This document shows positions 745-17,425 of a stretch of 64,000 nt of DNA, one piece after another. The stretch's first letter is position 1. The number at the start of each line of letters is the position of its first letter. The translations under genes and the position numbers were made by a program. The stretch is from assembly GCF_038443385.1 (NCBI RefSeq), contig NZ_CP151726.1, positions 8,680,001 to 8,744,000 on the forward strand, in the 5' to 3' direction. This DNA is from Stieleria varia. GTDB lineage: Bacteria; Planctomycetota; Planctomycetia; Pirellulales; Pirellulaceae. The notes beneath the pieces are model-generated. The model was not told the origin of the DNA. It ran no database searches and saw only the letters and a list, made by a program, of their open reading frames with translations.

Positions 745-1332
745 TCAGCTACCGTGCAGTTGTTTCAGCTTTTCCAACGCTCGAATCCACAGCATGCGGA
801 CGGCGGCTGACGTTTTGCCCATTCGCTCGGCGATCTCATCGTGGGACAGGCCGTCAATGTGCCGCAGCGTCAGGACGGTGCGATGCTCAGGCGAAAGTTT
901 CTCGAGTGTGGCGGCCAACCGCAGCGTTTGTTCGGCTCGATCGGCGACGGACTGCGGGTCGGGTTCTTTGCCGACGGCGAGTTGTTCCAACTGAATACTG
1001 TCCCGGTCGACGGCGGCTTGCAAAGTCTTTTCGCGTCCCATTCCGCGTTTTTCAGTCGCCAGACAATCGCGTCGCTGTCGCATCATCGTTCGCGTCAGAA
1101 TCACACGCAGCCAAGCCAAGCGTTCCGCGTGTGTGGATCCCCGAAAACCGGTTTGACCACGCCACGCGTCCAACAGGGCTTGCTGTACCAAGTCCGATGG
1201 GTCGACTTTGCCTCGCAAGTCGGCGGGCATGTGACGCTCGGCCAGGAGCAACAGCCAAGGTCGGAGGGGACCGATCGACCAAGTTTGCCGCAGTGAGCTT
1301 TCTGCGATGTACGAGTCCTCACTGGAGTTCAT
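745..1332 (-). CDS. ECF-like sigma-70 factor
   Basis: A 195-residue sigma factor with a sigma-2-like region near residues 30-85 (RGKVDPSDLVQQALLDAW) and a C-terminal sigma-4 helix-turn-helix (LSPEHRTVLTLRHIDGLSHDEIAERMGKT-type). It should direct RNA polymerase to a set of promoters not visible here. I chose the ATG at 1332 because it overlaps the kinase stop in the form ATGA (1329-1332) and gives a start at MNSSEDSYIAES; the frame stays open further upstream but runs inside the kinase gene. The coupling to a membrane Ser/Thr kinase is typical of planctomycete sigma-kinase pairs, so phosphorylation of the sigma factor or co-regulation by the kinase is likely but inferred. Confidence 0.9.
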   Translation of the reverse strand: MNSSEDSYIAESSLRQTWSIGPLRPWLLLLAERHMPADLRGKVDPSDLVQQALLDAWRGQTGFRGSTHAERLAWLRVILTRTMMRQRRDCLATEKRGMGREKTLQAAVDRDSIQLEQLAVGKEPDPQSVADRAEQTLRLAATLEKLSPEHRTVLTLRHIDGLSHDEIAERMGKTSAAVRMLWIRALEKLKQLHGS

Positions 1333-4300
1333 GCCCGGGCCTTCGTCGAGAACAGGCGACGCCAGCCTCGCCCCATCAACCGGGCGATATCGACGGGAAT
1401 GCGTAGGCACCAGTAGATGTTGCACAGCAATCCAAAACCGATCAAAGAAATCAATACCAGATCTGCGGGTGCGAGCGTGTATTGGACCGTTTCGTTGTTC
1501 GCGCTGAAATACTCGTAGAACATTAGGATGGCGATCAAGACAGGGCCGCCTAAAGCCAAGGCCAGGACCGTGTTTATGATGGGTTTTCGGTCGGGATGGA
1601 CGCGAGATTGACGCCACTGGTCAGCGGCGATCCAGAGGGCTCCCACGCACGTCCACGGGGTGATGCCGTAAAGCAACGTGACTGCCATGTCGGACTGTGT
1701 CAGCCAGGTGGATTGCCAGCCAACGATCGCGATTGCCAAGACGGGTGGTGCGAGTAGCAACCAGGACAGGCTCCAACGCCGACGCCGCAACGTTTGCACC
1801 AAATAGGCACACGGCAGCACAACGATTGCAAACATGAAGATAGCGCCGCGCAGATGCGATGACAGAAAGTCGGACAGCGCGTGGGGCGACCTTGCGTGGC
1901 TGATCATCGGCATGCGACGCCGGGGATCGGGAGAGGAATGAATGTTGGCATTCACGGGAAGAACAGTTTCCGGTCCGTCTGAGGTGATGAAGACTCCGTC
2001 TGCACTAGACGTGATGATCTCATCATTGTGCTGCGACGGGGAAGAGACGATGTGCGGTAGGTTTCTTTCAGAGAACCACTCGTCATCCGACTCGTAGATC
2101 ACTCGCCCGGTCTCGCAATCAATTCCGGCGTGGTGGCTTTTGTAGAACCTGATCCAAACAATTGTTTTGTCGTGCTCTTGTGTCCATCGCTCACGCGTGA
2201 TGCTGCCCGGGTAGTCGATTTCGGTCCTCCAGATTGGAACGTCAGAATCAAGCGGCAGACACGTGAACGTGACCGCAGGATCCTGTATCGCCAGTTCTTC
2301 TTTCTGGGATCCCCAATGCAAAAACAATCGTTCAGGAATCTTGTCCCCGTTGATGTCCCGCATCCACATTCCCATCAAGTGCCGCCGGTCATCCAGGAAA
2401 GCAGACACGGGAAGCGGATCGACGACAAGCTTGCTCTCGGCCAGCGAGTAGACTCGCGTGACACAGGTGTTTCCCTCTCTGGCGATCCAAGCGACCCGGG
2501 GATGATCACTTTCAGCAGTGCAGTCGGACAAGACGACTTGCTGATGTGAGCTGTCGCGTGAGAAGTCCGACTGCATGTTGCGATCGCCTGCAGAAATACT
2601 GTCGATGAGGTCGCCGTTATCGGCACGACACCAGTGCAGCGTGGCGGTGGGGCTCTCTTTATCCTGACCGCCGAGATAGACGATGTGGTCATGCACCTCA
2701 CCGGGGACGATGTCAAACGGGACAAAGTAGCGTGTGTTGACTCCGTCGATCCAAAGCGGTCTTTGCCACAAAACCTCACCATCGCGACCGTCCCAGACGC
2801 AGAGGTAGAGCATTCGGGAGTCTTCGTACGATTGCGGACCGATGACATCCACCACGCCATCGCGATTGACATCCATGAATTGCAACTCATCCAGATGATC
2901 TGGTCGATTCAATCTTGCCGCTTTTTTCAAAAACTCCGTTGACCACCTGACCGCCCCGCTTTGCGAGCTGACGCTGGTCAGGATCAAAGCATCGCCGGGC
3001 TGCAGCCCGACCGCATGGCTCATAGGCTCATCACCGATCAGGATGATCGATCGATCGTTGTCAAAGGAGTAGGCGGAAAGGATTCGACCGCTGGTGGCAA
3101 TGGGCATCGTCCAACGTGTTTTTCCGCTTTGACCATCGATCAAACTAGCGGGAGAATCGGATAGACCGACGCGTCGCTGGAGGAAGTCGACACGACCGTT
3201 GCTGTACCGAACCGGGGTCCACTGAAGCATTGAGCTGGGATCGTACTGGTACGTCCAAACGGTTTCCAGTGTGTCGGCGTCGATCACACAAAGTGGTGAC
3301 GACGTGCCATCGCTGCAGGCAACAAGGGAGCGACCGTCTTGAGATTTCCATGATGCGATCAAGTGGTTTTCGCCCAGACGCAGGCGAGGCGAGGGTTCGT
3401 CACGCTGCAGCGTCAACTGTTGCGGGCCGTCGAGGTATGGGCCACTGCGTTGGCGGTAAACACGCACATTTTCTCGGGTGGGCGGGGTGGGGACGACATC
3501 CAGCTCTGCGGCGACATTGATCGGATCGGGGCTGGACGGATGAAACCGCAAGACCATCGATGCCAGTTCGTTGTCCGTCGTGCTGTCGCCGATCAGCAGA
3601 TCGATCTCGACGGTTCCCGGCGGCGTGTTGGACAGCTCCGTGCGCACTGCATCGACCTCTGCAACTCGCAACTGTTGCTGGAGCATCGTCACGGGGTGAC
3701 GAGCCCACGCCAACGACTTGCCATCACGACCGGAGATCCAATCGATATAGACGTAGAGCTCTCCTGTGTGGACGCTCGTCTTTTTCGCAATCGGGCTCGG
3801 AGGTCCGGCAAAGGAGGCGACGGCCAAGTCTCGCCATCCGTCTCCGTTGAGGTCCGCGGACACGCCGATTCGGGCAATGCAATCGTCGGCTGAACCGAGA
3901 ATCTGCGGAACCGGTGTTTTATCCCAGAGCGATTTGCCATCATCAGAGCTGATGACATCGATCCCCAGATCGACTCCGTTAAGATAATTTGACGTTGGCA
4001 CGACGACTTCATCGTTGCCGTCTCCGTTCAAGTCGGCGACCAGTGGCCAATCCGGTTGGTTTCGACCAACGGCATCACCCCACTCCAAGAGTAAGAGTCG
4101 ATGTCGCCATCTCGGCTTGCCGTTCAGGTCAAAGGCTTCCAAAAGTGTGGCAACATACCCCATACCGGGTGCCGAAGTTTGCTGAGAGTCGACAAATCCC
4201 AAGATGGATTCGCCACCCCGTCGCATCACCACCGGTTTGCGAGCCGGCATGAAACTCAGTTTGAGCGGCGAGCCTATTTCTGTCCCTGACGCGATCTCGT

Positions 4301-6695
4301 ATCGGTGGCACTGATCTCCCGCTTGGTAAACGATCACCCCCGATTTGCCATTATCCGAGTCATCGCTGATCCATTGCAACGGTGACGGCAACGCAAATCT
4401 CAATGGCGTCGATCCTCGGCGCACTCGGATCTCGAATTCGTAACCACCGCTTGAGGACGATCGATAGGCGCGGTGCGAATTGAAGCTGACGCCTCGGTAC
4501 GAACGTTGGTTGTGTCGCTGAATACCCAGGACACCATCGTATGGCCATCGAGATCCGTAGGTCGCTGTGACGGGTGGCGGAAACATCGCACGGATCGGAT
4601 CGCCCGACTTGCCACTGATCACTGCAACACACGCGTCGGCTTGGACCGCAAACTGCAGATGACATAGCAGTGCCGCGATGTCGTGAACTCCGTCGTCGTC
4701 GAGATCACCAACATCGACCAGATCCAGAACACCGGGAACCATCAGGTTTTCGCTGGCGGTGTGTGGTGCAGCGATCACGCTCTTGGCGGGCAAGCCGGCG
4801 ATTTCGTAGCTGCGGGCCCAGAGTGTCTTGCCGTTGTGATCGACCGCCATCAAAGCGGCTTGCTCCGTCGCCGCCACGAGCGTATCGGACTCCCCATCAC
4901 CGTCAAGATCGATCGGTGACTGCAGGGCGAGTTGTCCGTCGGTGTAGACGCAGTTGTCGTCCAAACTGCGGTGGCCGCGATTGGAATTGAGCAGATCGCC
5001 GGTGACCGCAAAGTTGACATCGGCAACGCGATCCGTCGTGACTTGGTCTTGAGGGGTCAGTGTCACGACTTGAGTGGGAATCGCAGCGACATCGAGTTGC
5101 CAGTCGTGTTTTCCTGATAAGGTAACACGCGAGAGCGAGCCGTTTTGACGTGACAGGATGGCGGGTTCGTTTTCATCGGCCACCGCGATCGCAAACGTAT
5201 CATCGATCGGAACCGTCTTTCGCTCGATCGGCTGACCGGTCAAGCGATACTCGCGTTGTTGCCCGCGAGTAATCGGCAGACGTAGACGACGGCTCCATTG
5301 ACCGGGCGGCGCGAGCAGCATGTCAAAATCGCCCGCAGGTAGTTTCTGATGACTCTGCATCGGGACGGTCAGTTGTATCGCACCGTCGGACAGGCTGGAT
5401 TGCCCGACCGGATGGATGCTGGTCATGTAGGGGCCACCGGCGGCCCGCAATCGGAACGAACCGAGCGTGCTTTCGTGCCACGATCGCAAACCGAATAGCA
5501 AAACGGTGATCATCGCGGCGGTCGCCAACACCGTTGCCACGGCGATTCGCACACGGGATTGATGTCGACGCGTCCAGCGAACCGCACGCTCGACCAGCGA
5601 AATCTCACGTGCTCGGATCGGTCGGTCTTCACGGATCGCACGCAAGTCATCCGCCAACTCGGCGGCGGAGGCGTAGCGTCGATCGGCATCCTTTGCCATC
5701 GCTTTTTGGATCACGACGCTGAAGTCACGCGGCAGATCGTCGCGCAGCTTGTGAACGGGCAGCGGATCATCATCGCGAATCTTACTGATCAGCTTCAGTG
5801 GTTCATCGCCATCAAAGGCCGGCTGTCCGATCGCCATTTCATAGAGGGTCGCACCGAGTGAATAGATGTCGCTGCGTCGATCGACATCCGTGTTGCGAAA
5901 GTCTGCTTGTTCGGGGCTCATGTACCGGGGCGTGCCCAAGATCGCGCCGGTCATGGTCGCGCCGACGTCGAGCAAGCGTCGGGCCAATCCAAAGTCCGTC
6001 AACCAAACACGATCGTCCAGGTCGATGATCAAGTTCGCCGGTTTGACATCGCGGTGGACCACATCACGCTGATGCGCATGGTCGAGAGCCTCGGCGGCTT
6101 GGATCCCCACGCGGAGGATCTCCTCCAGCTCGATGGGGGTTTTGGATTCGTTGGCCGCAGTGATTTTCGCTGCCAAGCTTGTTCCCTCGATCCGCTGCAT
6201 CGCGTACCAACTCGTGTCGCCAGTCCGTCCTGTTGCGTAGACGGGGACGATGTTGGTGTGGTGCAGTGAACCCGCCGTCTCGGCTTCGCGTTGAAATCGC
6301 TGCAGGGCTTGAGGGTCCACGATGCCAAATCGCATGACCTTGAGCGCGACCACGCGATCGAGCGTCTTTTCACGGGCCTCGTAGACGACGCCCATCCCGC
6401 CGCGTCCGAGTTCTCGCAGGATTTCATAGTCACCGATCGAATCGGGCGTGGGGTCCGCAGCGGTGGTTTGCTGCGGTGCCGCCTTCACCCCCAGCGTTTC
6501 GCCCTCGTCGAACAACTGGACGCCGTCCAAGCACGCCGCCAGACGCTCTGCGTACTCGGGATGCTCCGCCAACCATTGCTCGCGGGGCTGTGCAGCTCCT
6601 TGCTCGACGTCATGCAAATACCGCTCAAGAATTTCCGCAATTTTCTCGTCGATCGAGGAATCATCGGAGTTCTCGGACGTTTGCAAGGTGTTCAT
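1329..6695 (-). CDS. Giant membrane Ser/Thr kinase with FG-GAP-like extracytoplasmic region
   Basis: A 1788-residue protein. A short N-terminal region is followed by a kinase domain of about residues 89-365: glycine loop GRGGMG (97-102), ATP-binding Lys 119, HRDVKPAN (214-221) and DFG (234-236) are all present, so it should be active. One membrane segment follows (about 382-404). Then about 1180 residues face outside and carry repeated Asp-rich motifs such as DLDGDGESD (from 596), DLNGDGNDE, DLNGDGWRD and DVNRDGVVD, as in FG-GAP/VCBS beta-propeller proteins that bind calcium. The last roughly 200 residues contain several membrane segments and a basic tail. The downstream sigma gene overlaps by four bases. 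It probably senses an external ligand and signals to the sigma factor; the ligand is unknown. The polytopic C-terminus is unusual for this kinase type. Confidence 0.9.
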   Translation of the reverse strand: MNTLQTSENSDDSSIDEKIAEILERYLHDVEQGAAQPREQWLAEHPEYAERLAACLDGVQLFDEGETLGVKAAPQQTTAADPTPDSIGDYEILRELGRGGMGVVYEAREKTLDRVVALKVMRFGIVDPQALQRFQREAETAGSLHHTNIVPVYATGRTGDTSWYAMQRIEGTSLAAKITAANESKTPIELEEILRVGIQAAEALDHAHQRDVVHRDVKPANLIIDLDDRVWLTDFGLARRLLDVGATMTGAILGTPRYMSPEQADFRNTDVDRRSDIYSLGATLYEMAIGQPAFDGDEPLKLISKIRDDDPLPVHKLRDDLPRDFSVVIQKAMAKDADRRYASAAELADDLRAIREDRPIRAREISLVERAVRWTRRHQSRVRIAVATVLATAAMITVLLFGLRSWHESTLGSFRLRAAGGPYMTSIHPVGQSSLSDGAIQLTVPMQSHQKLPAGDFDMLLAPPGQWSRRLRLPITRGQQREYRLTGQPIERKTVPIDDTFAIAVADENEPAILSRQNGSLSRVTLSGKHDWQLDVAAIPTQVVTLTPQDQVTTDRVADVNFAVTGDLLNSNRGHRSLDDNCVYTDGQLALQSPIDLDGDGESDTLVAATEQAALMAVDHNGKTLWARSYEIAGLPAKSVIAAPHTASENLMVPGVLDLVDVGDLDDDGVHDIAALLCHLQFAVQADACVAVISGKSGDPIRAMFPPPVTATYGSRWPYDGVLGIQRHNQRSYRGVSFNSHRAYRSSSSGGYEFEIRVRRGSTPLRFALPSPLQWISDDSDNGKSGVIVYQAGDQCHRYEIASGTEIGSPLKLSFMPARKPVVMRRGGESILGFVDSQQTSAPGMGYVATLLEAFDLNGKPRWRHRLLLLEWGDAVGRNQPDWPLVADLNGDGNDEVVVPTSNYLNGVDLGIDVISSDDGKSLWDKTPVPQILGSADDCIARIGVSADLNGDGWRDLAVASFAGPPSPIAKKTSVHTGELYVYIDWISGRDGKSLAWARHPVTMLQQQLRVAEVDAVRTELSNTPPGTVEIDLLIGDSTTDNELASMVLRFHPSSPDPINVAAELDVVPTPPTRENVRVYRQRSGPYLDGPQQLTLQRDEPSPRLRLGENHLIASWKSQDGRSLVACSDGTSSPLCVIDADTLETVWTYQYDPSSMLQWTPVRYSNGRVDFLQRRVGLSDSPASLIDGQSGKTRWTMPIATSGRILSAYSFDNDRSIILIGDEPMSHAVGLQPGDALILTSVSSQSGAVRWSTEFLKKAARLNRPDHLDELQFMDVNRDGVVDVIGPQSYEDSRMLYLCVWDGRDGEVLWQRPLWIDGVNTRYFVPFDIVPGEVHDHIVYLGGQDKESPTATLHWCRADNGDLIDSISAGDRNMQSDFSRDSSHQQVVLSDCTAESDHPRVAWIAREGNTCVTRVYSLAESKLVVDPLPVSAFLDDRRHLMGMWMRDINGDKIPERLFLHWGSQKEELAIQDPAVTFTCLPLDSDVPIWRTEIDYPGSITRERWTQEHDKTIVWIRFYKSHHAGIDCETGRVIYESDDEWFSERNLPHIVSSPSQHNDEIITSSADGVFITSDGPETVLPVNANIHSSPDPRRRMPMISHARSPHALSDFLSSHLRGAIFMFAIVVLPCAYLVQTLRRRRWSLSWLLLAPPVLAIAIVGWQSTWLTQSDMAVTLLYGITPWTCVGALWIAADQWRQSRVHPDRKPIINTVLALALGGPVLIAILMFYEYFSANNETVQYTLAPADLVLISLIGFGLLCNIYWCLRIPVDIARLMGRGWRRLFSTKARA

Positions 6696-7013: not shown

Positions 7014-7683
7014 CACCATTAAGGAGACGGTCGGGATGGACGGCGCAACGAGGATTCTTTTCGTTTTTTCTGTGACAGGTGAACCTCCAAAGTGAGCCTG
7101 TGTCACCTGTGGGTCGGCGGACTTGGGAGGGCTTAGCAAGGGGAGTGGAGAAGGGATCATTGGTGAGGTCGGATCGAGCTGGCTCGATGACGACTAACCC
7201 AGGCTGTGAGAGATTTGGCGGTCGCTCGGTTGACTTTCGGCGGCCAAATCATTGGGCTCGTGTCATCACAGCGGTTACTCGGATGGGAGCAGCCGGACAC
7301 GAAATCTCGGGATTCGATAGACCATTCGGATGAATCCCGTTTGGATAGGCCGCTTTGCGGCTTCCTGTGGAAACTTGTTTTCCAATTACTGTGAACAGAT
7401 GCAGCCAGGGTTCCAGCTAGCAAACGAAACTCGAACGATTGTCGATTCACAGATCCGACCATGGAGTCGCTGGGGATGGACGGAGCAAGAGTGGTCGAGG
7501 TGAACGAGCGCAATGAAGCCGCTCGCAATCACCTGGACGCTTTTCGAGCGTTTTTTTGTGTGGCGTCCGAGAATGATCATTCTGACCCGTTACCTTTGCG
7601 GAGACAGCACGCCAGCTTGTTTTCCTACAATCGATCGTGTGCGGACGAAAACAATTCCTAAATGGGTTGATGGAAAATCGGCG

Positions 7684-10600
7684 ATGCGTGACTTGGATCT
7701 TTGGCAATTCCTTGAGGCGACGGAGGTCGATTCGAAAATCGGATCGACCTCTGTCTCGCCGCTGGAACAACTTGCCGAACGGTCGTTGCGTCAGCGTGCC
7801 CCGTTTGTCTCGCTGCTGATCCGCTGGCTGGATTCTCCTGACGCCAGCGTGCGGCGTGCGATCTTGCTGTGCTTGGCAGGCTGTCGCGGCGTCGCGGCAC
7901 GCCGTGCCTTGGTGAATCACCTCGACGACGATGACGCTTCGGTACGCCAAGCAGCTCTCGACACGATCTCGGTGACGCCGACGCGTTCTCTGTTGGTGCA
8001 CGCGTTGTTCCATCCCAGGTGCGACGTCCGTCTGGCCGCGATCGAGTCGGCGACCAAACAGTCAGCGGGCATGCGAAAGAACAACGCCGATTTGCTGCTC
8101 TACCTGTTGTGTGATCCCGAGACCCGTCAGCACGCGATCGACTATTTGGCGACGTCACAGATCGATCGTCTGCCCTTCATGCTTGTCAGCGCAATGCACG
8201 CGGCGAAGTTGATCGACGATACGTTGGCTCGTCGTATCGTTTTGATGGCCGACCCCCGGATGATCATCGTCCTGTTGAGTAACTGGTCAGAGTCTGACGA
8301 TATCGACTCGCCGCCCGTCATCTGGCTACTGAGTCTCTTTTGGGATCAGGATACAAGTGAGCCGGAGGCGGTATCGAATCGATTCCCAAAAGGCTTTTTT
8401 CACGCTTTGATCGAGTCGATTAGCGCCCCCACGGGGAACTGGGTTGATACCAAATTTGCACTCAGGTGTCGCGACTTGGTGCATCAACGTGGCCGGTGGA
8501 ATCCTCTGGTGGCGCGTTTGTGCTTGATCGGTTTGGCGAGCAGGCTGGACTGGCTGGTGGACGATGTGCTTCCGCTGGATGTGTTTCGCGAGGTTGCGGA
8601 CGAGCTGTATCGCGTCGGTATGTCGATCGCGGAAGTCCCAGTGGAGGTCGTTCGGGGCTATCTCAAATCGCCGTGGTGCCGTCGTGAATCGGGTCAGTTG
8701 GATTTGCGCGTGATCGGTGCGATCCTGCACCTCCGCCGACGTGACGGATTTCAGGTCCTGTTGAGTGAATTCAAAGTCACGCAAATCACGGCCGGTTTTG
8801 ATGAGCGTCCTGCCGAATCCGCGATGCTGTTCTCCTATCCAGGGTCATCCAAAGAACAGAATGAACTGATCGAAGCCGTCTTTGCCAATCGATCCAAAGA
8901 CCCGTTCGCCATCGCCATCATGTTGTGCGTGGTGCCGGCGAGCGGTTTGCGGTTTGTTGCTTCACTCACGTCAGCAGAGATGGTCAAGACGTTGCGTGAG
9001 TTGTATCGCTTGACCGATGGCGACGAGTGGTCGGTGTCCGTCAACAAGAGCGCCGCGATCGCCCATCAGTTCTGCAGGCAAATGCTGAGTGGGCAAAAAT
9101 TGGATGAAATCGCATTCCGTGAGTTTCTGCAGCAATGGTTGACCGATCGATGGCTTTCCGACACTCCCATTGCCACCGTGTGGATCGATTCCGCAGACGA
9201 GCGGGTTCGTAGACGGGCGAGGTTCTCCGTCGGCGTCGACTTGGTCACCGAAGTCATCCGGTCGCTGGATAACGAATGGATCGTCGTTTGGATGATCGAC
9301 AACATGACGCCGGTCACGATGGCACAGTTTCTTTCCGTGGTGCCGTACTGCAGCGGACTCTCCTATGCCTTTGAGATGACGCTGGCTCAGCGGCTGATCG
9401 ATCATCCTGAACCCGCTCTCGCACAATGGGCCGCAGATCGCGTGTCTGTTCAGAACGGTGCGTCTGGCAATGCGGAAAAGGAGGCAGCGGAGGCTGCACT
9501 GGAACCAGGCTCGTCGCTGTCGCCGGCAAACCGACATATCTTGATCAACGAGTCAGCCATCCGCATGCACGCTTTGGCGGTCTCCTTGATCGGCAAACGC
9601 TGCGTCGGTGTGGTGGACGCGATTCGTGAGCGTGGATCGCTGACCACGGATGACGAACGTGTGGCTGCTTGCATTGCCCTGTTTGCGTCTGCTGACTCAC
9701 CGATCGAAATCGCCACAACGCTGGTGACGCTGGGTTGCGACGATGAACGCGTTTACGCGCTCGTGGTCCCGGAGTTGATCCGGCATGCCTACCTGTCGCG
9801 TCTCGGTCCGCTAGGCTTTGCGTTGATGCATCGCTGGGAATTCCCCGCATTCTCGTTTGGACGCTGCTGCATGGCCGACGAATCCGAATGCATCGCTTGG
9901 TTGGAGATGGCGGATCGGCTGGCAGCACCCGTCTTGGCGCAGGAACTCGTTCGCTGCATCGCCCACGTGACCGCATTGTACATCGCACGCGAGAACACGC
10001 GTGCCGAGGAGTTGCTCGGCAAATCGCTTTTGGAGACCTGGCTGGAGAGATTGCCGACTCAGTACTCGGTCGATGCGGCGGGTGTCCTGATGCGTGCATT
10101 CAAACGCGGCATCAACCGGGCAGCGTTTGTGCAGATGCAGACCCGTGCTTTGGAGATCATTCCTGAATTGAGCGCCGAAGTTCAATTCCGGTTGAGACCT
10201 TGGGTGGACTCCACGCGATTGGGCAGCGTTGCCATCACCCGGCAAATCAAGCCCACTGCCGTAGACTCAAAGACTCGCGACGCCATCAGCCGCTGCATGG
10301 ATCGAGACCGATTGTCGGCTTGGTTGCGAGACCGAGACGCGACGATCGTGGTTGATGCCGTAATCAGATTGATCGAGTTGGGACACACCGGGATCGAATG
10401 CCTGGTCGATTCACTGCTGGAAAATCCGCCGCTGCCTTGTGCACAGGCGATTGCGGAAACCGTCTTGCTGTGGCCCGCGGACGAGTTGCCGTTGGTCGTT
10501 GGATTGATAGGCGATCGCATGCCAGATAATCGCAAGCTCCCTGATAGCACCTTGTTTCATTTCACGCTTTACGCATTGGTGGGATTCGGCGACGGGTCGC

Positions 10601-12882
10601 ATGTCGAATTTGATCGTGACACGGCGATCAAGGTTCTCAGCGATGTCATGATGCGTCCTTGTACAACGTCGTGGATTCAATCTACTGACATGACGCTGTT
10701 GCTGTCACAGCTTTCACACGATGAAATCGCTGAACTCTGCTGTCGTTGGACGCAATCGATGCATCCCAACGTTTATCGGTGGGCTGTCTTGCGTCAGGTC
10801 CTTCGACTGGACAATGCGGATGTCGATCACGCCCCGGTGATTCGTTCCCTCGAACAGTTCCTGCAGATCGGCACGGATCGTGATCAATCGCTTCGGGTCA
10901 AGGCAGCGGTTGCCCTGGCCCGAAAAGGCAACTGGATTGGATTTCCTATCCTGTTGACGCACCGTTTGGAACACGGTGTTTCCGATGCCAACGATCCGCT
11001 TGCGCGATTACCCATGCAATGGGTTCCTGACAAGCTGGTGGTGCCCGCCGTGGAGTCCTTGTTGGCAGCCGGCCCTGATGCCATCAGCGAAATCGCATTG
11101 AATTCGCTGATCGATTTCCAACGCATGGAAATCCATCACGTCAAGGCAGCCGAGCGCGTGATGCGTGATGCGATGGACGACAATGTTCGTCAAGGCGTGG
11201 CGACCATGGTGCGCGGTCACGGCGATCGCCCCGGAAAATTGCGTCGGATTGCCGGCGAGTTCAAACGCGGCGTCCAGGTCGGACGGGAATTGACCGGACG
11301 ACTGTTCTCCATCGAAATGATCGGAGGCAGCGACTACGGCTACACGCGATTGACCGAGGACCGAATCTATATCAATCCAATGCCGCTGCTGACGGGAGTT
11401 CCACACGCCGAAGACATCGTTCAAGGCCTGATCGTCCATGAGATCGGGCATCACATGTACCATCGCGGCCGTAAAGAGGAAATGATCTGGCGATCGGCAC
11501 AGAAACAAGGTCTTGGCCAATTGCTCAATCTCGTCGCCGATGAGCATCTGGAACGAAACCTGCGAGCGTTGGATCGCAATTACGGCAATCAGTTGAAACG
11601 ACTGGGCGCGTACGCGTTCAATCGTGGTGCCAAGGACATGGCGGTGGATCAAGTCCTGAGGTTGCTGCGTGAAAACGCGTTTGACGTGTTGCGGAACAAT
11701 CCACCGACCGTTGCCAGGGCCCCGGAATGCCTGCACCTTCGCGGCGGCATGCTATTGCAGGACTTGGAGCGATGCGGCAGCAGTTTCGCTCGCTTCTTTC
11801 GCGCAATGCGACTCGGACTGGGCAACCGGCACGATGACCCAAAGGTCGCCGAAGGACTGGCGTTGTTTGACAAATCGTTTCGCAAGCTCGACATGTTCGG
11901 ACTGATGCGGGTTTGTAAGCAACTGCGTAGAATCTTCGGCGATGATGCGTGCATGAATGGGTTTCCAACGCTGGAATCGCTGCTGTCCGATAGCGATGGA
12001 GACTTGGCGGTCAAAGCCGACGGGATCAGCAACGACGACATTCAACGCGAAATCCTGCGAGTCACCAAACCACCGAGTGCCGATGGTGGGAGCGGTGGAC
12101 CGCTGGTGATCAACGTCGGCGATGATCTGCAATTCAACTTGATCCACCGAGTCCAACGCTTGCCTTACTTGCCCGATGCGTATCGCCCTCTGGCAGAGCA
12201 AGTCGGTGCAACTTCGCGTCAGTTTCGTGATTTTCTGCGTGACTTGGGGCTGTCGCAGGTTCGTCGTCCGCGGCGGATCCGGGGACGGAGTGTCGACGCG
12301 GGAGGGCTGCGAAATCTGGTACTCCGGGGAGACCCACGTGTGTTGGTTGCTCGCGAGGTTCGCTACCACAACGATCTGTTCCTGTCCGTCGTCGTCGACT
12401 GCAGCGGATCGATGGACACCGGAGACAGTATGCCCAAAGCACGGTTGTTTGCGGCGATGATGGCCGAAGCATGCCGTGGTCTGGCGGGAGTTGATCTGCG
12501 GATCTTTGGCTTCACGGACAACGAGATCTACGATGCCGGAGACGCGATGCGTCCCGCCATCGCGGAACTCAGCGCGGGGGGAGGAAACAACGATGCCGCC
12601 GCGCTGTGGCATGCGGCTGGCGTGGCCAAACAATCACGACGTAGCGCCAAGGTGCTGGTCATGATCAGTGACGGATTGCCAACGGAGTGCAGCACCCAGG
12701 CGTTGGCGGCGCTGGAGCAACGACTCAGCCGGCAATCGGATACGGTTTGTGCTCAGGTCGCCGTGCGACCGTTGACGGAGATCTGTTTTCAGAATTATAT
12801 CGAGTTGACCGACACCGACATCGCGGTGTCCGTGCGACGCTTCGGCGCGATCGTCGCGAAACTTGTCAAACAAATGATTTAG
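7684..12882 (+). CDS. Helical-repeat protein with zincin-like motif and CobT-like VWA domain
   Basis: A 1732-residue protein. About residues 20-1150 are helix-rich with repeated two-helix units (near the start VRRAILLCLAGCRGVAARRA and VRQAALDTI), like HEAT/ARM scaffolds. A zincin-type motif HEIGHH is at 1252-1257 with a likely third ligand Glu 1287 in LVADEHLER, as in VWA proteins carrying DUF2201-like metallopeptidase domains. The C-terminus (about 1560-1732) is a VWA domain with a MIDAS motif DCSGS (Asp 1572), GGGNND and MISDG, resembling the VWA of cobaltochelatase CobT. No signal peptide or membrane segment is seen. I chose ATG 7684 because the next 50 residues are clearly repeat-like; the frame opens at 7513. 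The AAA+ gene begins 10 bp after the stop. Together they look like a remodelling or metal-insertion machine; the substrate is unknown. Confidence 0.85.
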   Translation: MRDLDLWQFLEATEVDSKIGSTSVSPLEQLAERSLRQRAPFVSLLIRWLDSPDASVRRAILLCLAGCRGVAARRALVNHLDDDDASVRQAALDTISVTPTRSLLVHALFHPRCDVRLAAIESATKQSAGMRKNNADLLLYLLCDPETRQHAIDYLATSQIDRLPFMLVSAMHAAKLIDDTLARRIVLMADPRMIIVLLSNWSESDDIDSPPVIWLLSLFWDQDTSEPEAVSNRFPKGFFHALIESISAPTGNWVDTKFALRCRDLVHQRGRWNPLVARLCLIGLASRLDWLVDDVLPLDVFREVADELYRVGMSIAEVPVEVVRGYLKSPWCRRESGQLDLRVIGAILHLRRRDGFQVLLSEFKVTQITAGFDERPAESAMLFSYPGSSKEQNELIEAVFANRSKDPFAIAIMLCVVPASGLRFVASLTSAEMVKTLRELYRLTDGDEWSVSVNKSAAIAHQFCRQMLSGQKLDEIAFREFLQQWLTDRWLSDTPIATVWIDSADERVRRRARFSVGVDLVTEVIRSLDNEWIVVWMIDNMTPVTMAQFLSVVPYCSGLSYAFEMTLAQRLIDHPEPALAQWAADRVSVQNGASGNAEKEAAEAALEPGSSLSPANRHILINESAIRMHALAVSLIGKRCVGVVDAIRERGSLTTDDERVAACIALFASADSPIEIATTLVTLGCDDERVYALVVPELIRHAYLSRLGPLGFALMHRWEFPAFSFGRCCMADESECIAWLEMADRLAAPVLAQELVRCIAHVTALYIARENTRAEELLGKSLLETWLERLPTQYSVDAAGVLMRAFKRGINRAAFVQMQTRALEIIPELSAEVQFRLRPWVDSTRLGSVAITRQIKPTAVDSKTRDAISRCMDRDRLSAWLRDRDATIVVDAVIRLIELGHTGIECLVDSLLENPPLPCAQAIAETVLLWPADELPLVVGLIGDRMPDNRKLPDSTLFHFTLYALVGFGDGSHVEFDRDTAIKVLSDVMMRPCTTSWIQSTDMTLLLSQLSHDEIAELCCRWTQSMHPNVYRWAVLRQVLRLDNADVDHAPVIRSLEQFLQIGTDRDQSLRVKAAVALARKGNWIGFPILLTHRLEHGVSDANDPLARLPMQWVPDKLVVPAVESLLAAGPDAISEIALNSLIDFQRMEIHHVKAAERVMRDAMDDNVRQGVATMVRGHGDRPGKLRRIAGEFKRGVQVGRELTGRLFSIEMIGGSDYGYTRLTEDRIYINPMPLLTGVPHAEDIVQGLIVHEIGHHMYHRGRKEEMIWRSAQKQGLGQLLNLVADEHLERNLRALDRNYGNQLKRLGAYAFNRGAKDMAVDQVLRLLRENAFDVLRNNPPTVARAPECLHLRGGMLLQDLERCGSSFARFFRAMRLGLGNRHDDPKVAEGLALFDKSFRKLDMFGLMRVCKQLRRIFGDDACMNGFPTLESLLSDSDGDLAVKADGISNDDIQREILRVTKPPSADGGSGGPLVINVGDDLQFNLIHRVQRLPYLPDAYRPLAEQVGATSRQFRDFLRDLGLSQVRRPRRIRGRSVDAGGLRNLVLRGDPRVLVAREVRYHNDLFLSVVVDCSGSMDTGDSMPKARLFAAMMAEACRGLAGVDLRIFGFTDNEIYDAGDAMRPAIAELSAGGGNNDAAALWHAAGVAKQSRRSAKVLVMISDGLPTECSTQALAALEQRLSRQSDTVCAQVAVRPLTEICFQNYIELTDTDIAVSVRRFGAIVAKLVKQMI

Positions 12883-12892
12883 GAATGGCGTG

Positions 12893-14005
12893 ATGACGAA
12901 GTGGAGTGTGGACGAATTGAATGTCGGCATGTTGGTCGAAACAACATTCTGGGCCAATCCGGTTCAGACCAGCGGATTTCGTTTTCGAGCGACCCATCTC
13001 AATGGCCGACGGGCACCAAAAGTCATCCTCTGCGATGACGCCAGGATCGTGCCAGGCAGACCCTGTCGTGTGAAAATCACTGCGATCAAGAAAGCGTCGC
13101 GTGAAGACCGCGGGTCGATCGAAGTCGAGTTTGATCGAATGTTGGAATTCCAGCTCGACGGCGTATACCTCGATCCCATCGTCTCAAAGAAGTTGCAAGT
13201 GTTGCTCGAGAGCGGATTGAACATCTTGCTCGATGGTCCGCAGGGCTGTGGCAAGACGGTCACCGCTCGTTCGATCGCCGAGACCTTGGGTATGGAGTTC
13301 GTTTTCTTTAATTGCGGCGCGGTGGTCGACCCGACCGACTTCTTGGCGACCATCCAAGTGCGCGCGTCGGAGACCGGCTCGCCCGTCACGGATTTCACCA
13401 AGACGGAAGTGCTCGAAGCGTTGGAGGCGGCGTTGGAAAATCCCAGAAAGCGATACCTGATCTTTTTGGACGAGTTGAATCGGTCTCCCGAAAGTGCCCG
13501 CAACGCTTTGATGCCCGCGTTGGATTCGTCGCGTCGACTCTTTCATCCGATCGAGAACCGATTTCTGCCCATCGGGGACAACGTTCAGTTCATCGCGGCG
13601 GTCAATCGAGGCAGCGAGTTTTCAGCGACATTCGGAATCGACGCGGCGCAGTTGGACCGTTTCGCGCCGTTGCAAATGGATTACTTGCCCGCGGCGGAGG
13701 AAGTCAAATTGCTGAAAGCTCGGCATCCCGAACTGAGTGATGCGATCATCAAACGCATCGTGGACTTGGCCAGCAAAGTTCGCTCGGCGCCCGAGATTCC
13801 AGGCGGACTGTCTGTGCGAGCGACGGAAGAAGTGTGTGTGTACTTGAAGCATCCCTTGTTCGCGGAGCAACCGCACCAGGATTTGGCAGAGATCCTCAAG
13901 TCGTCATTCTGCGGCCGATTTTCGGGACACTGGAGCGACGTCACCACCGACGCCGGAGCCGTCTGGTCACTGATCCAACGAGGGGCCCGGCGTGAGCTGA
14001 GCTGA
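12893..14005 (+). CDS. CobS/MoxR-like AAA+ ATPase
   Basis: A 370-residue ATPase. Residues 1-90 are an unfamiliar N-terminal domain (basic, probably beta-rich). The AAA+ core has Walker A GPQGCGKT (115-122), Walker B LIFLDE (189-194), sensor-1 Asn in AAVNRG (about 238) and an arginine in QLDRF (256) that may act as the finger. The motif GSEFSATFGIDAAQLDRF is like CobS of cobaltochelatase. No cobalamin genes are nearby, so cobalt insertion is not supported. A GTG three bases upstream (12890) is an alternative start; the ATG at 12893 is preceded by AGGAATGG. The gene follows the VWA-protein gene by 10 bp, and AAA+/VWA pairs usually act as one complex in the cytoplasm. Confidence 0.9.
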   Translation: MTKWSVDELNVGMLVETTFWANPVQTSGFRFRATHLNGRRAPKVILCDDARIVPGRPCRVKITAIKKASREDRGSIEVEFDRMLEFQLDGVYLDPIVSKKLQVLLESGLNILLDGPQGCGKTVTARSIAETLGMEFVFFNCGAVVDPTDFLATIQVRASETGSPVTDFTKTEVLEALEAALENPRKRYLIFLDELNRSPESARNALMPALDSSRRLFHPIENRFLPIGDNVQFIAAVNRGSEFSATFGIDAAQLDRFAPLQMDYLPAAEEVKLLKARHPELSDAIIKRIVDLASKVRSAPEIPGGLSVRATEEVCVYLKHPLFAEQPHQDLAEILKSSFCGRFSGHWSDVTTDAGAVWSLIQRGARRELS

Positions 14006-14030
14006 GCCATCCGCCTCGACAAATCGGATC

Positions 14031-14096: not shown

Positions 14097-14159
14097 ATGC
14101 GACGAGAGCTTTCGCGTTGCGTTGCCTCGCAGTTCTTTGACTCCACGAGATGGAAAACG

Positions 14160-14552
14160 ATGTCCATGGACGCCGATCCGACAGAACGTGAAATGGAGAT
14201 TCTCAAAGTGCTTTGGGAAATCCAAGAAGGCTCAGTGCGAGAGGTGCACGAACGTTTGACGCCCGAGTCGGGTTTGCACTTCAACACGATCCAAACTCAG
14301 CTTCGAATCATGGACGACAAAGGACTTGTCAAACATCGACGCGAAGGAAGGGTGTTTCTCTATCGTCCTCAATGCACTCGTGAGGATGTCTCATCTCGAT
14401 TTGTCAAGAAGGTGTACGACGGGGCCGTCAACGAACTGATGTTGAACATGTTGCGATCCGAAAAGCTCAGCGACAAGGAGTTGCAGGAGCTGGAAGCGAT
14501 GATCGCGGAAGCCCGCTCGAAAAAATCACAGAAGAGGAAAAAGCGATCATGA
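14160..14552 (+). CDS. BlaI/MecI/CopY-family repressor
   Basis: A 130-residue winged-helix regulator: [27 protein letters not shown] followed by [30 protein letters not shown] is the family's DNA-binding domain, and the rest is a helical dimerisation tail ending in a lysine-rich stretch. In the family, a membrane M56 sensor triggers cleavage or release of the repressor. ATG 14160 was chosen because the conserved domain begins there; an open frame back to 14097 would run over the downstream operator. The stop overlaps the next gene as ATGA, so repressor and sensor are translationally coupled. It most likely represses its own operon through the palindromes at 14031 and 14079. Confidence 0.9.
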
Positions 14553-17425
14553 TCATGCAGAATTTCTCGCAATGGTTGGCTCATTCGACGATCTTCGGGA
14601 CCATCCTTCTTGCGATCGGCGCGATCGCGGTCCTGTTGTTTCGCCAACCGGTCCACCGCGTTCGAATCATTCACTGGACGCTTGTTGCCTGTTTATTGGT
14701 TCCTTTATTTCAGCAATTCCATTTTCTGCCGAGTTACTCGCTGGGATTGCTGCAATCCACAGTCCAATCAAACTCGCTGATGCAGGTGGACATGACATCA
14801 GCGACTGAGTCAGTTTCCTTGGTTGACGAAGGCGTGGGGGCGGCGAATCCGGGTCCCATCGCGATCGCTCGAACTGTGCAATCGCAAGAGTTATCGGCGG
14901 AACCTGTGGCGGATCGCGAAAGCAACGCATCGGTCACCCAGCCAGAAGGATCGACCCACGCCCAAGCTGCGCGGAGGAACGTCATCGCGTCACTTTGGCT
15001 TGCCGTGCAAATGCTCTATCTGATGACGGTTGCCGGCATGGGTGTTTTTTGGTGCTTGGCCATATCGCGTCGATCCGCGATCACACGTCGAAGCCGTCCC
15101 GCGAAAAAGTCGACTGCAGCGTTGCTGTCAGGTATCGCGGGAACGAACAAACTGCCCAAGTTGCTTGTGAGCGATGACATCTGCTCTCCCGTCATGTGGG
15201 GTCTGATGCGATCAACGATTGTGATCCCGTCTACGCTGGAGAATGGGGAACCGGATCGACTGAGGTGGGGTTTGGCACACGAGTGGGCACACGTCGTCAA
15301 TCGCGACTATCCCACCTGGATCCTGGCGGCGATCGCTAAGTTTGTTTGCTTCTTTCAGCCTCACTATTGGTGGCTGCGACGGCAGTTGACGCTCAGTCAA
15401 GACTACCTCGCCGATGCTTATGCGACCGACCACGGTGAATCGGCGGAAGACTACGCGGCTTTCTTGGTCGAGTTGGCTCGCGATACGATCCCGGCTCGCG
15501 GCACTTTGGCCTTGGGCATCGCTGACAGCAAGTCGAATCTGTTTCGGAGAGTTCAAACGCTTGTCGTTTCCAGCGTTCCATTGCTCCGTCGCCCAAGCCC
15601 ATTCTCTGTTCTGGCCATTGCGTTGACGGGTGTCGTAGCGGTTGCCAGCTTGAGCCTACTCCGCCTTGGGAATCAACCGGCTCTTGCAGCCATGCCGGTG
15701 ACGGAGGGCGACAAGGATGACGGTGCCGCAGGTAAGACCCTTGACGGCGACACAAAGGACGATGGGCGGTTACCCGATCCGATCACCTATGTCGGCAAGG
15801 TCATTGACAGGGAGACGGGCAAGCCTATCAAGGGCGCCAGCGTTGAAGTCATTCACGAGCTGAGTCGCGATCCAAACACGAATCAGTGGGTCACGCTTCG
15901 CACCACCACGCATGTTTCCGATGAGAACGGCAGGTATGAGTTCACATTGCCGCCGGAGGAGGTTGCCCAGCCATCACTTTACATTGTCGTTGATGCACAT
16001 CACCCCAACTATCAACCCAAAGGACAAAGTGGGTATGCACATTCGATGATCCGCACAAACTTGGAGAAGGGCGAGCCACCGTTCTTTGAGACAATCAAGT
16101 TGTCTCCCGGGGAGCCGATCATGGGACAAGTACTCAATCCAGACGGGGCCCCCGCAGTCAACACGCGTTTGTTGGTGTACTCAAAATCGCCAACCAAACC
16201 TGAAGGACAGAGTTGGGAATACGGGGCTTTCCAGAATACTGCAACCGACGATGAGGGCCGTTTTCGAATGGTTGTCGCGACGCCAGGTGACGGTGTACTA
16301 TGGATTTATCCCAAGAACGCTGCCCCAAGAGCGATCCGGCTTCGAGACAAACGCGGCCAATATGACTCCATCCAACTGAATGACGGCAAGCGTCTGACCG
16401 GCCAAGTGCTAGACACCAAAGGAGAACCGGTCGCCAATGTCGGTGTTTCGGTCGATAGCTTGAGCGATGGCGAAGATGCTGACGAATTCCTGAATCCGAA
16501 CGCTGTCTCCACAGGCATTCGGGCTACAGCGATGACGGATGCGCAAGGCAAGTTCGAACTGCTCCCCCTGCCGCCAGGCGAGTATTCGGTGCGTGTCGAA
16601 GATCAGGTGCATGACCCGACAGAGGAGCAAACAGGACGGAAGCCGAAGAAAGATCTCGACCACGCCTTTTCACGGATGAAGATCACCATCTCCGATGACG
16701 ACATCAACGAGCCACTTGTCATCCGAGCACTTCCGCATGTCATCATTCGAGGCCGATTCTTTGATGCTCATGGAAAACCTCGTGCAAGCCACTCTCAACA
16801 TCTGTTTGGAAAGGTCGATGGTGAGTTCTTCTCTATGGAAAGCTCTCGGCCAGGAGAAGACGGTTGGTTCGAGTTCAAGGCGCCTCACGGTGCAACGGAT
16901 GTCCGCATCAATACGATGACCAACGAACACAGCGCGCTTCGCTGGAGACTGAAACCCAAGGACCCGTTGTCTGTCGAACGTGAAATCAATCTTGGAACAT
17001 TGGAAGAGGATATCACGACACTAGAAATCGTTCGCTACAAAGCTCCCATTCTGCTGGTCAAAATCATCGACGAGACCGGCAAACCGATCGATGGCTTCAA
17101 GCCCGACACGCAGTACGTCGAATCAAAGGACGACGAAACGATGATGAGCGGGCGGTTCGTGAACGGTGGCGTCATCAATTTCGAGAAACAGCCAGACGGT
17201 CGCTGGCGGTCTGGCCAAATGCAACCCGATACCAAACTGCAAGTAACAATTCTCGAAAATGATCTAGGGAATCGAGACGATACGGAGGAGAATGATCCTG
17301 ATAAAGAAGCTCAGGAGTTCCATTACGTGACCAAGCCGCAAACGGTGTCGTTGGCGGAGAGTGACACCAAGGAAATCGTCTTCGTGATGGAAAAGCAAGC
17401 GGGCAGCAAGGATCCGGTCCGATGA
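14549..17425 (+). CDS. M56 (BlaR1-like) membrane metallopeptidase with carboxypeptidase-regulatory-like repeats
   Basis: A 958-residue protein. Two N-terminal membrane segments (about residues 8-55) and a third (about 145-172) precede the zinc motif HEWAH (244-248), followed by [11 protein letters not shown] where M56/M48 enzymes carry the third ligand; here the position appears to be Asp or is displaced, which I cannot settle. A fourth membrane segment (about 350-370) leads to about 580 extracytoplasmic residues with four units like carboxypeptidase regulatory domains ([72 protein letters not shown]). In BlaR1 the outer domain senses beta-lactam; no penicillin-binding motif is seen, so the signal is something else. 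It overlaps the repressor gene and the cytochrome-like gene by four bases each. Confidence 0.9.

Follow-up and report, generated by a model that had tools for sequence, protein, structure and literature searches.

What does a bacterium do with a giant protein that joins a long helical scaffold, a peptidase-like domain and a VWA domain in one chain, and whose gene is followed within a few base pairs by one for an AAA+ ATPase? The question is raised by a 64,000-nucleotide stretch of the Stieleria varia genome (contig NZ_CP151726.1, positions 8,680,001 to 8,744,000; hereafter the window), where the giant protein, here called ORF1 for open reading frame 1, and the ATPase are encoded at positions 7684–14005. 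An earlier note on this DNA had described a giant protein with repeat helices, a HEIGHH motif and a metal-ion-dependent adhesion site (MIDAS), with an AAA+ gene just after it, a description confirmed by the coordinates in Table 1 and by motifs invariant among relatives. We found that the pair is inherited together with a structured RNA. On balance we consider it probable that ORF1, its dedicated CobS/midasin-like ATPase and a trans-acting RNA form a three-component system, an RNA-dependent remodelling machine.

Domain make-up of ORF1 and its ATPase

The frame of ORF1 is open, and the gene is single-copy in its own genome. An alternative in-frame ATG upstream, at 7513, is possible; the start at 7684 is shared by the two relatives of the genus (loci L011 and L012). 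Residues 1–1165 are predicted to form an all-helical solenoid (AlphaFold model, predicted local distance difference test score (pLDDT) 85.6), which bears out the roughly 1150 residues of repeat helices proposed earlier. A Pfam scan placed VWA_CoxE over its cutoff (residues 1524–1684). HEAT matches were weak, although HEAT_2 is matched strongly in sister proteins. The MIDAS motif DCSGSM spans residues 1572–1577. Across 26 aligned relatives H1252, E1253, H1256, H1257, D1286, E1287, E1290 and R1291 are invariant in the zincin part, as are D1572, S1574, S1576, N1635, N1636, D1637 and D1663 in the VWA part, so the motifs are not a product of chance.

Table 1. Predicted features of the ORF1 locus (window positions)
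Feature	Position	Strand	Basis
Structured noncoding RNA, predicted new family, ~150 nt	7205..7375	+	covariance models R1/R2, pair counts, kissing loop
ORF1, giant solenoid-zincin-VWA protein, 1732 aa	7684..12882	+	
Alpha-solenoid, HEAT/ARM type, ORF1 residues 1-1159	7684..11160	+	AlphaFold model, weak HEAT_2, generic fold matches, HEAT_2 in sisters
Zincin-type (CobT N-terminal type) domain, ORF1 residues ~1183-1330	11230..11673	+	profile-profile match, helix-sheet-helix model
HEIGHH, predicted zinc-binding/catalytic motif, residues 1252-1257	11437..11454	+	invariant in 26 relatives
DEHLER motif, residues 1286-1291, probable third metal ligand D1286 or E1290	11539..11556	+	invariance, CobT-type profile
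Conserved stretch before MIDAS, ~residues 1523-1561, probable NorD-finger counterpart	12250..12366	+	NorD alignment
VWA domain with MIDAS: DCSGSM (12397-12414), GGGNNDA, SDGLPTECS	12361..12879	+	VWA_CoxE, midasin/NorD fold matches
AAA+ ATPase, 370 aa, N-terminal domain ~95 aa, CobS/midasin type	12893..14005 (GTG 12890 also possible)	+	
Walker A	13235-13258	+	in AAA+ ATPase gene
Walker B	13457-13474	+	in AAA+ ATPase gene

Depending on whether the ATPase starts at GTG 12890 or ATG 12893, it begins 7–10 bp past the ORF1 stop. The key residues of both Walker motifs are invariant in 26 ATPases, in agreement with the earlier note, which had placed an AAA+ gene with intact Walker motifs 10 bp on. Its label "CobS-like" and its reading of the pair as an AAA+/VWA remodelling machine also hold: the ATPase matches Pfam AAA_5, its best phage family is phrog_249 (CobS type), and midasin is its best match in the PDB, where NorQ/NorD are also among the closest relatives. 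The pair is of MoxR type: the ATPase is AAA_5/MoxR-like, its Walker motifs are intact, and its VWA partner, encoded alongside, bears a MIDAS. Type-A ATPases, those accompanying full-length ORF1, are 62–86% identical to that of the window across phyla. Neither NCBIfam nor PADLOC assigns the pair to a named family.

The model of residues 1160–1732 (pLDDT 79) shows a zincin-like helix-sheet-helix domain, a helical linker and a VWA domain. Two families had been named for comparison with this region. CobT is supported: the zincin regions alone match CobT-type proteins in profile-profile comparison (E 3.8e-6; E-values here are rough, from short calibrations), with a profile score of 39–44.5 against a maximum of 21.8 in 60 column shuffles. 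Pfam PF06213 (CobT) itself gave no match on ORF1. CobT_C is weakly matched in 22 of the 26 members and VWA_2 in all 26, and CobT headed the PDB profile hits (E 1e-6). DUF2201 membership was rejected, since a search of the entire genome for PF13203 brought up nothing at E ≤ 1e-3 and no match is listed among the family members. The VWA domain also superposes on the MIDAS domain of midasin (Z 21.1, root-mean-square deviation (rmsd) 2.3 over 195 residues) and, with Z 18.2 and an rmsd of 4.4 over 238 residues, on the VWA domain of NorD together with the finger. The latter alignment pairs model residues 315–567 with NorD 351–638 and takes in the NorD finger (403–448; PMC13036017); local pLDDT is low in the corresponding stretch of the ORF1 model.

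Since the zincin-only profile match beats the shuffles and is joined by the fold matches, the C-terminal third of ORF1 is of CobT type with an intact metal motif, and may have peptidase activity. The zincin-VWA part is moreover of a known kind, because the CobT-type layout occurs in phages and plasmids, and the view that a zincin and a VWA domain in one chain fit no known class has to be abandoned. Among viral structure models, phage CobT/VWFA proteins match the whole 1160–1732 piece (E 4e-17, with high global rmsd); P0004, a CobT-like protein encoded on a plasmid, carries HEAAH and LEDIRIE, its zincin part matching PF06213; and jumbo phages encode a metallopeptidase fused N-terminally to vWA and paired with a MoxR ATPase (PMC7824862). 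Novelty on the protein side lies in the giant solenoid and in how strictly ORF1 is paired with its dedicated ATPase: a CobT-type zincin-VWA module is fused to a giant helical scaffold. As a side observation, CobT-like zincin-VWA proteins with HE..H are found on many plasmids (1206 records matched, 969 of them predicted conjugative, e.g. IncC). Those at L088 4732–6588 and in L090–L093 adjoin DUF3150 proteins and are annotated merely as VWA.

Does the zincin cut? HE..H with an invariant third acid is found in all 26 sequences. Glu1287, proposed earlier as the third zinc ligand, is indeed invariant, but alignment with the CobT-type zincin profile matches D1286 and E1290 and not E1287, so that the ligand is likelier D1286 or E1290. 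A zincin that is a scaffold with no enzymatic role is a tentative alternative, compatible with every other reading considered below, and one that we take seriously while leaning the other way. A phage CobT protein (P0003) matches CobT (PF06213) and lacks HE..H, so the fold can serve without its metal site. However, the HE.GHH plus D/E motif is invariant in 26 relatives over two phyla, which is the pattern of a retained metal site.

A structured RNA is co-inherited with ORF1 and its ATPase

About 140 bp upstream of ORF1 are 78–81% identical to the same place in the genomes G001 and G002, with differing flanks. Among 40 relatives, the region is found within the genus only in the three module-bearing genomes. 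A small gene was considered and rejected, there being no clear conserved open frame. In the predicted fold a 5' hairpin comes first; a closing stem then encloses three more hairpins, and the loops of the first two of these three form a kissing loop. RNAalifold, applied to a MAFFT alignment of three sequences, gave 59 pairs, 10 of them with two-sided changes; in a count on 55 pairs of the three-sequence alignment 96.4% of the cells were paired, a level reached in none of 500 shuffles. An alignment of 16 sequences, biased towards the model to which it was fitted, has 93% of cells paired and 165 two-sided changes. In 18 of 19 sequences the loop of the conserved CUC-N6-GAG hairpin can form 4–6 base pairs with the loop at the tip of the hairpin that follows, and the paired bases covary (GGUGG/CCACC, GAUGG/CCAUC, GGCGG/CCGCC). 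Their summed score is 257, against 222 for re-dealt loops (0/5000) and 185 for letter-shuffled loops (0/1000).

Scanned against Rfam, the window RNA matched nothing at E ≤ 5, and two relatives gave no match but a chance one to a microRNA; no Y RNA was matched in these scans. Neither a transfer RNA nor a sigma-70 promoter was found near the RNA. A viral RNA was also rejected: three exact short matches to the core pattern in viral contigs scored poorly with the full model (E 0.03–0.4) and lay without ORF1 or ATPase. The RNA would constitute a new family, which has a covarying kissing loop and is conserved in both Planctomycetota and Myxococcota.

A covariance model built from three sequences found 13 more ORF1 loci over two phyla (E ≤ 0.002), with the RNA always upstream and on the ORF1 strand. 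Rebuilt and run on 26 chosen genomes, it matched 17, once each, all with ORF1. The nine without a match are six genus mates without ORF1, a fragmented assembly whose ORF1 match lies in a short frame (G261), a genome with type B only (G065), and G066. Setting aside all of these except G066, the RNA is present in 17 of the 18 genomes with a full-length type-A ORF1. Three matches lay outside the training set: 246 nt upstream of ORF1 in G116, 7.6 kb away in G072 and 280 kb away in G032. Among 392 Planctomycetota genomes, ORF1 was found in four (one a fragment) and the ATPase in three, all within those four; under stricter filters the RNA was found only in the window's own genome and G116, the two that hold full-length ORF1 with the ATPase.

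The ATPase gene directly follows ORF1 in most loci. In G032 and G060–G064 it lies elsewhere in the genome, and the orthologue was present in all nine genomes searched for it, unlinked cases included. The idea that the pair is always linked therefore stands for co-occurrence and fails for adjacency, the genes being apart in at least five genomes. Where the ATPase gene lies away from ORF1, the RNA still accompanies ORF1, and ORF1, ATPase and RNA are co-inherited across two phyla even when unlinked. In the Myxococcota genome G066 two ORF1 paralogues flank one ATPase gene (L031 246–11680), and in two Myxococcota loci, L032 9008–13540 and L036 1761–4592, two extra genes, with Pfam matches that differ between the loci, lie between ORF1 and ATPase.

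Does the RNA act on ORF1 expression rather than with the protein? If it were a riboswitch-like leader acting in cis, the proteins would be a protein-only remodeller of CobST/NorQD type, as such AAA+/VWA machines are otherwise described (PMC13036017), and the position of the RNA 177–974 nt upstream and on the same strand as ORF1 in 15 of 16 model loci would be expected. Yet the distances vary widely, a predicted opposite-strand frame separates RNA and ORF1 in L025, and a genome carries only a single RNA even if it has additional ORF1-like genes (G063, G072). Furthermore, the RNA lies 2.9 kb from ORF1 with genes between in L021, and still farther away in G072 and G032, and because of these three cases it is probably a separate, trans-acting molecule. 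We therefore regard the leader as unlikely.

Distribution, proposed action and competing explanations

The relatives examined are a sample, not an exhaustive set, and the species-level scan (one genome per species) lists at least those given here. ORF1 is patchily distributed: 3 of the 14 members of the genus have it, and elsewhere in the order it is present in few genomes. Its relatives, mostly 1600–1900 residues long where complete, occur in Planctomycetota and many Myxococcota, with a shorter one in Gemmatimonadales; among the holders of the system is a cultivated strain, Plesiocystis pacifica SIR-1 (locus L027). In a sister subfamily, type B, the ATPase lies upstream of a shorter HEAT-zincin-VWA protein, ORF1', of ~1140–1310 residues (L037 7140–10939, L075 5452–10532, L077 9482–14213); G063 and G072 carry both types. 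No ORF1 relative was found in viral contigs, phages and plasmids showing VWA-level similarity only, and a viral origin of ORF1 was rejected on this ground.

Synteny with G001 begins just to the right of the module, at window position 14028, 23 bp past the ATPase stop; in G001 this cluster stands without ORF1 and ATPase, G001's own copy being at another place in the genome. The two-gene module is therefore a discrete unit. Clustering of neighbours, which were annotated in part, revealed no conserved third protein gene and no cluster recurring beyond close relatives; the third component found to travel with the pair is the structured RNA. For completeness, window 14097–17425 encodes a BlaI-like repressor (151 residues) and then an M56/BlaR1-like protein with a large C-terminal extension, both syntenic in G001 without the module, and window 1329–6695, upstream of the RNA, a divergently oriented protein of 1788 residues, in which a Ser/Thr kinase-like N-terminal part is followed by a long C-terminal region.

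The domain make-up, the invariant zinc and MIDAS residues, the covarying RNA fold with its kissing loop and the co-inheritance of the three parts are shown by sequence, structure models and comparison, and we infer RNA-protein contact from co-inheritance alone. How might the parts work together? NorQ contacts NorD through a finger in the AAA+ pore and through the VWA C-terminus, and ATP cycles twist NorD (PMC13036017). Because ORF1 has a VWA domain, a finger region and a conserved C-terminus, NorQD-like docking is likely: the ATPase ring would dock on the VWA domain via the pore-entering finger and the VWA C-terminus. Bacterial Ro60 has a HEAT-repeat ring and a MIDAS VWA domain, with Y RNA encoded nearby (PMC11277228, PMC7790460), which suggests that the ORF1 solenoid would bind its RNA as that ring binds Y RNA. 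Both parallels lead us to favour an RNA-dependent remodelling machine. The RNA would act as a gate or adaptor selecting the client, which we think is an RNA or an RNA-protein particle; the ATPase would spend ATP on twisting or pulling ORF1, and the client would be remodelled as a result; and the zincin would clip exposed client or be a metal-stabilised structural part. Going one step further, the system would be a ribonucleoprotein machine of a class so far undescribed in bacteria: an AAA+/VWA remodelling complex that has a zincin protease built in and a trans-acting structured RNA as a permanent component. For this reading we see about even chances.

Several observations weigh against an RNA-dependent machine. 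The RNA lies 180–970 nt upstream of ORF1 in most loci, which also fits a leader. G066, with its two ORF1 copies, has no RNA match, and no RNA is present in the available DNA of locus L034. Type B lacks this RNA, which implies that the protein core can work without it. Fold searches with the solenoid returned generic HEAT/ARM solenoids only, and neither TROVE (Pfam scan, E ≤ 1) nor another RNA-binding domain was recognised in ORF1.

Could the system instead serve in conflict or defence? The zincin would then be an effector held inactive by an AAA+/VWA switch, with the RNA as sensor or inhibitor, along lines proposed in general for other MoxR-vWA conflict systems of multicellular bacteria. This is consistent with the patchy spread (about 1% of sampled Planctomycetota), the absence of the module beside the syntenic cluster in G001, the AbiEii-like gene after the ATPase in L011, and the host phyla, which are rich in MoxR-vWA conflict systems (PMC7159879). 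However, no VMAP, iSTAND, FtsH-like or beta-propeller third protein was recognised among the partly profiled neighbours, no neighbour gene recurs, PADLOC matches are weak only, and the strong conservation of the ATPase and of the zincin-VWA part sets them apart from effectors, which diversify rapidly. We consider a defence role improbable, to much the same degree as a leader. The bpMoxR score was sub-threshold (Pfam scan), and a link to MADS was dropped, the mad8 score being weak and no paper on such a link being found. The AbiEii-like nucleotidyltransferase match is itself weak; such genes follow the ATPase in genus relatives at L011 15465–16100 (tested) and L012 15036–15638, and not in the window.

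A role in metal insertion, as a chelatase or metallochaperone in the manner of CobN-CobS-CobT or NorQD, is very improbable: the CobT-type layout, the CobS-type ATPase and NorD as the nearest solved VWA with a finger would fit, but no metal-enzyme gene recurs among the neighbours, annotated in part, known chelatases do not need a large solenoid, and the RNA has no place. The defence and leader readings partly overlap with the RNA-dependent machine that we favour, while an inactive zincin is independent of them.

Comparison with known systems

In published descriptions, AAA+/VWA machines such as midasin, NorQD, CobST and RavA-ViaA remodel proteins and have no RNA component of their own; if the RNA were left aside, the protein pair would still be new, but as a variant of this familiar type. 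Phage and plasmid proteins of the CobT-like zincin-VWA kind (PF06213 + PF11775) share the zincin, helical linker and VWA domain in one chain and a CobS-like AAA+ ATPase encoded nearby, and they resemble the last 570 residues of ORF1 in profile and fold. They differ in being mostly 500–750 residues long and in the N-terminal part of the ATPase, which was compared in outline only; we know of none with a 1150-residue solenoid or an associated RNA. The jumbo-phage pair likewise has a metallopeptidase N-terminal to vWA and a MoxR ATPase, whereas no giant solenoid is mentioned and a role in virion assembly is proposed (PMC7824862). The MoxR-vWA ternary conflict systems of multicellular bacteria combine an AAA+/VWA pair, sometimes with superstructure-forming repeats (PMC7159879), but none of their third proteins was recognised here, where the third part is an RNA.

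NorQ-NorD resembles the present system in pairing an ATPase with a VWA partner whose finger region can be aligned (PMC13036017). It differs in its client, nitric oxide reductase, and in that NorD is described with neither zincin nor RNA. Midasin (Rea1/MDN1) provides the closest solved MIDAS domain and the closest solved AAA+ sequence. It is a single chain with six AAA+ modules and no zincin, and it acts on pre-60S ribosomes.

Ro60/Rsr shares HEAT-type repeats, a MIDAS VWA domain and, in bacteria, a structured noncoding RNA encoded close by. It has no zincin or dedicated AAA+ motor, whereas ORF1 has no TROVE match and its RNA no Y RNA match. To our knowledge the midasin and MoxR-VWA world has no RNA-containing member, and the system described here would be the first, in parallel to Ro60-Y RNA or the vault. 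If the RNA-dependent reading is true, it would open an RNA-dependent branch of AAA+/VWA machines and provide bacteria with a counterpart of Ro60 or the vault.

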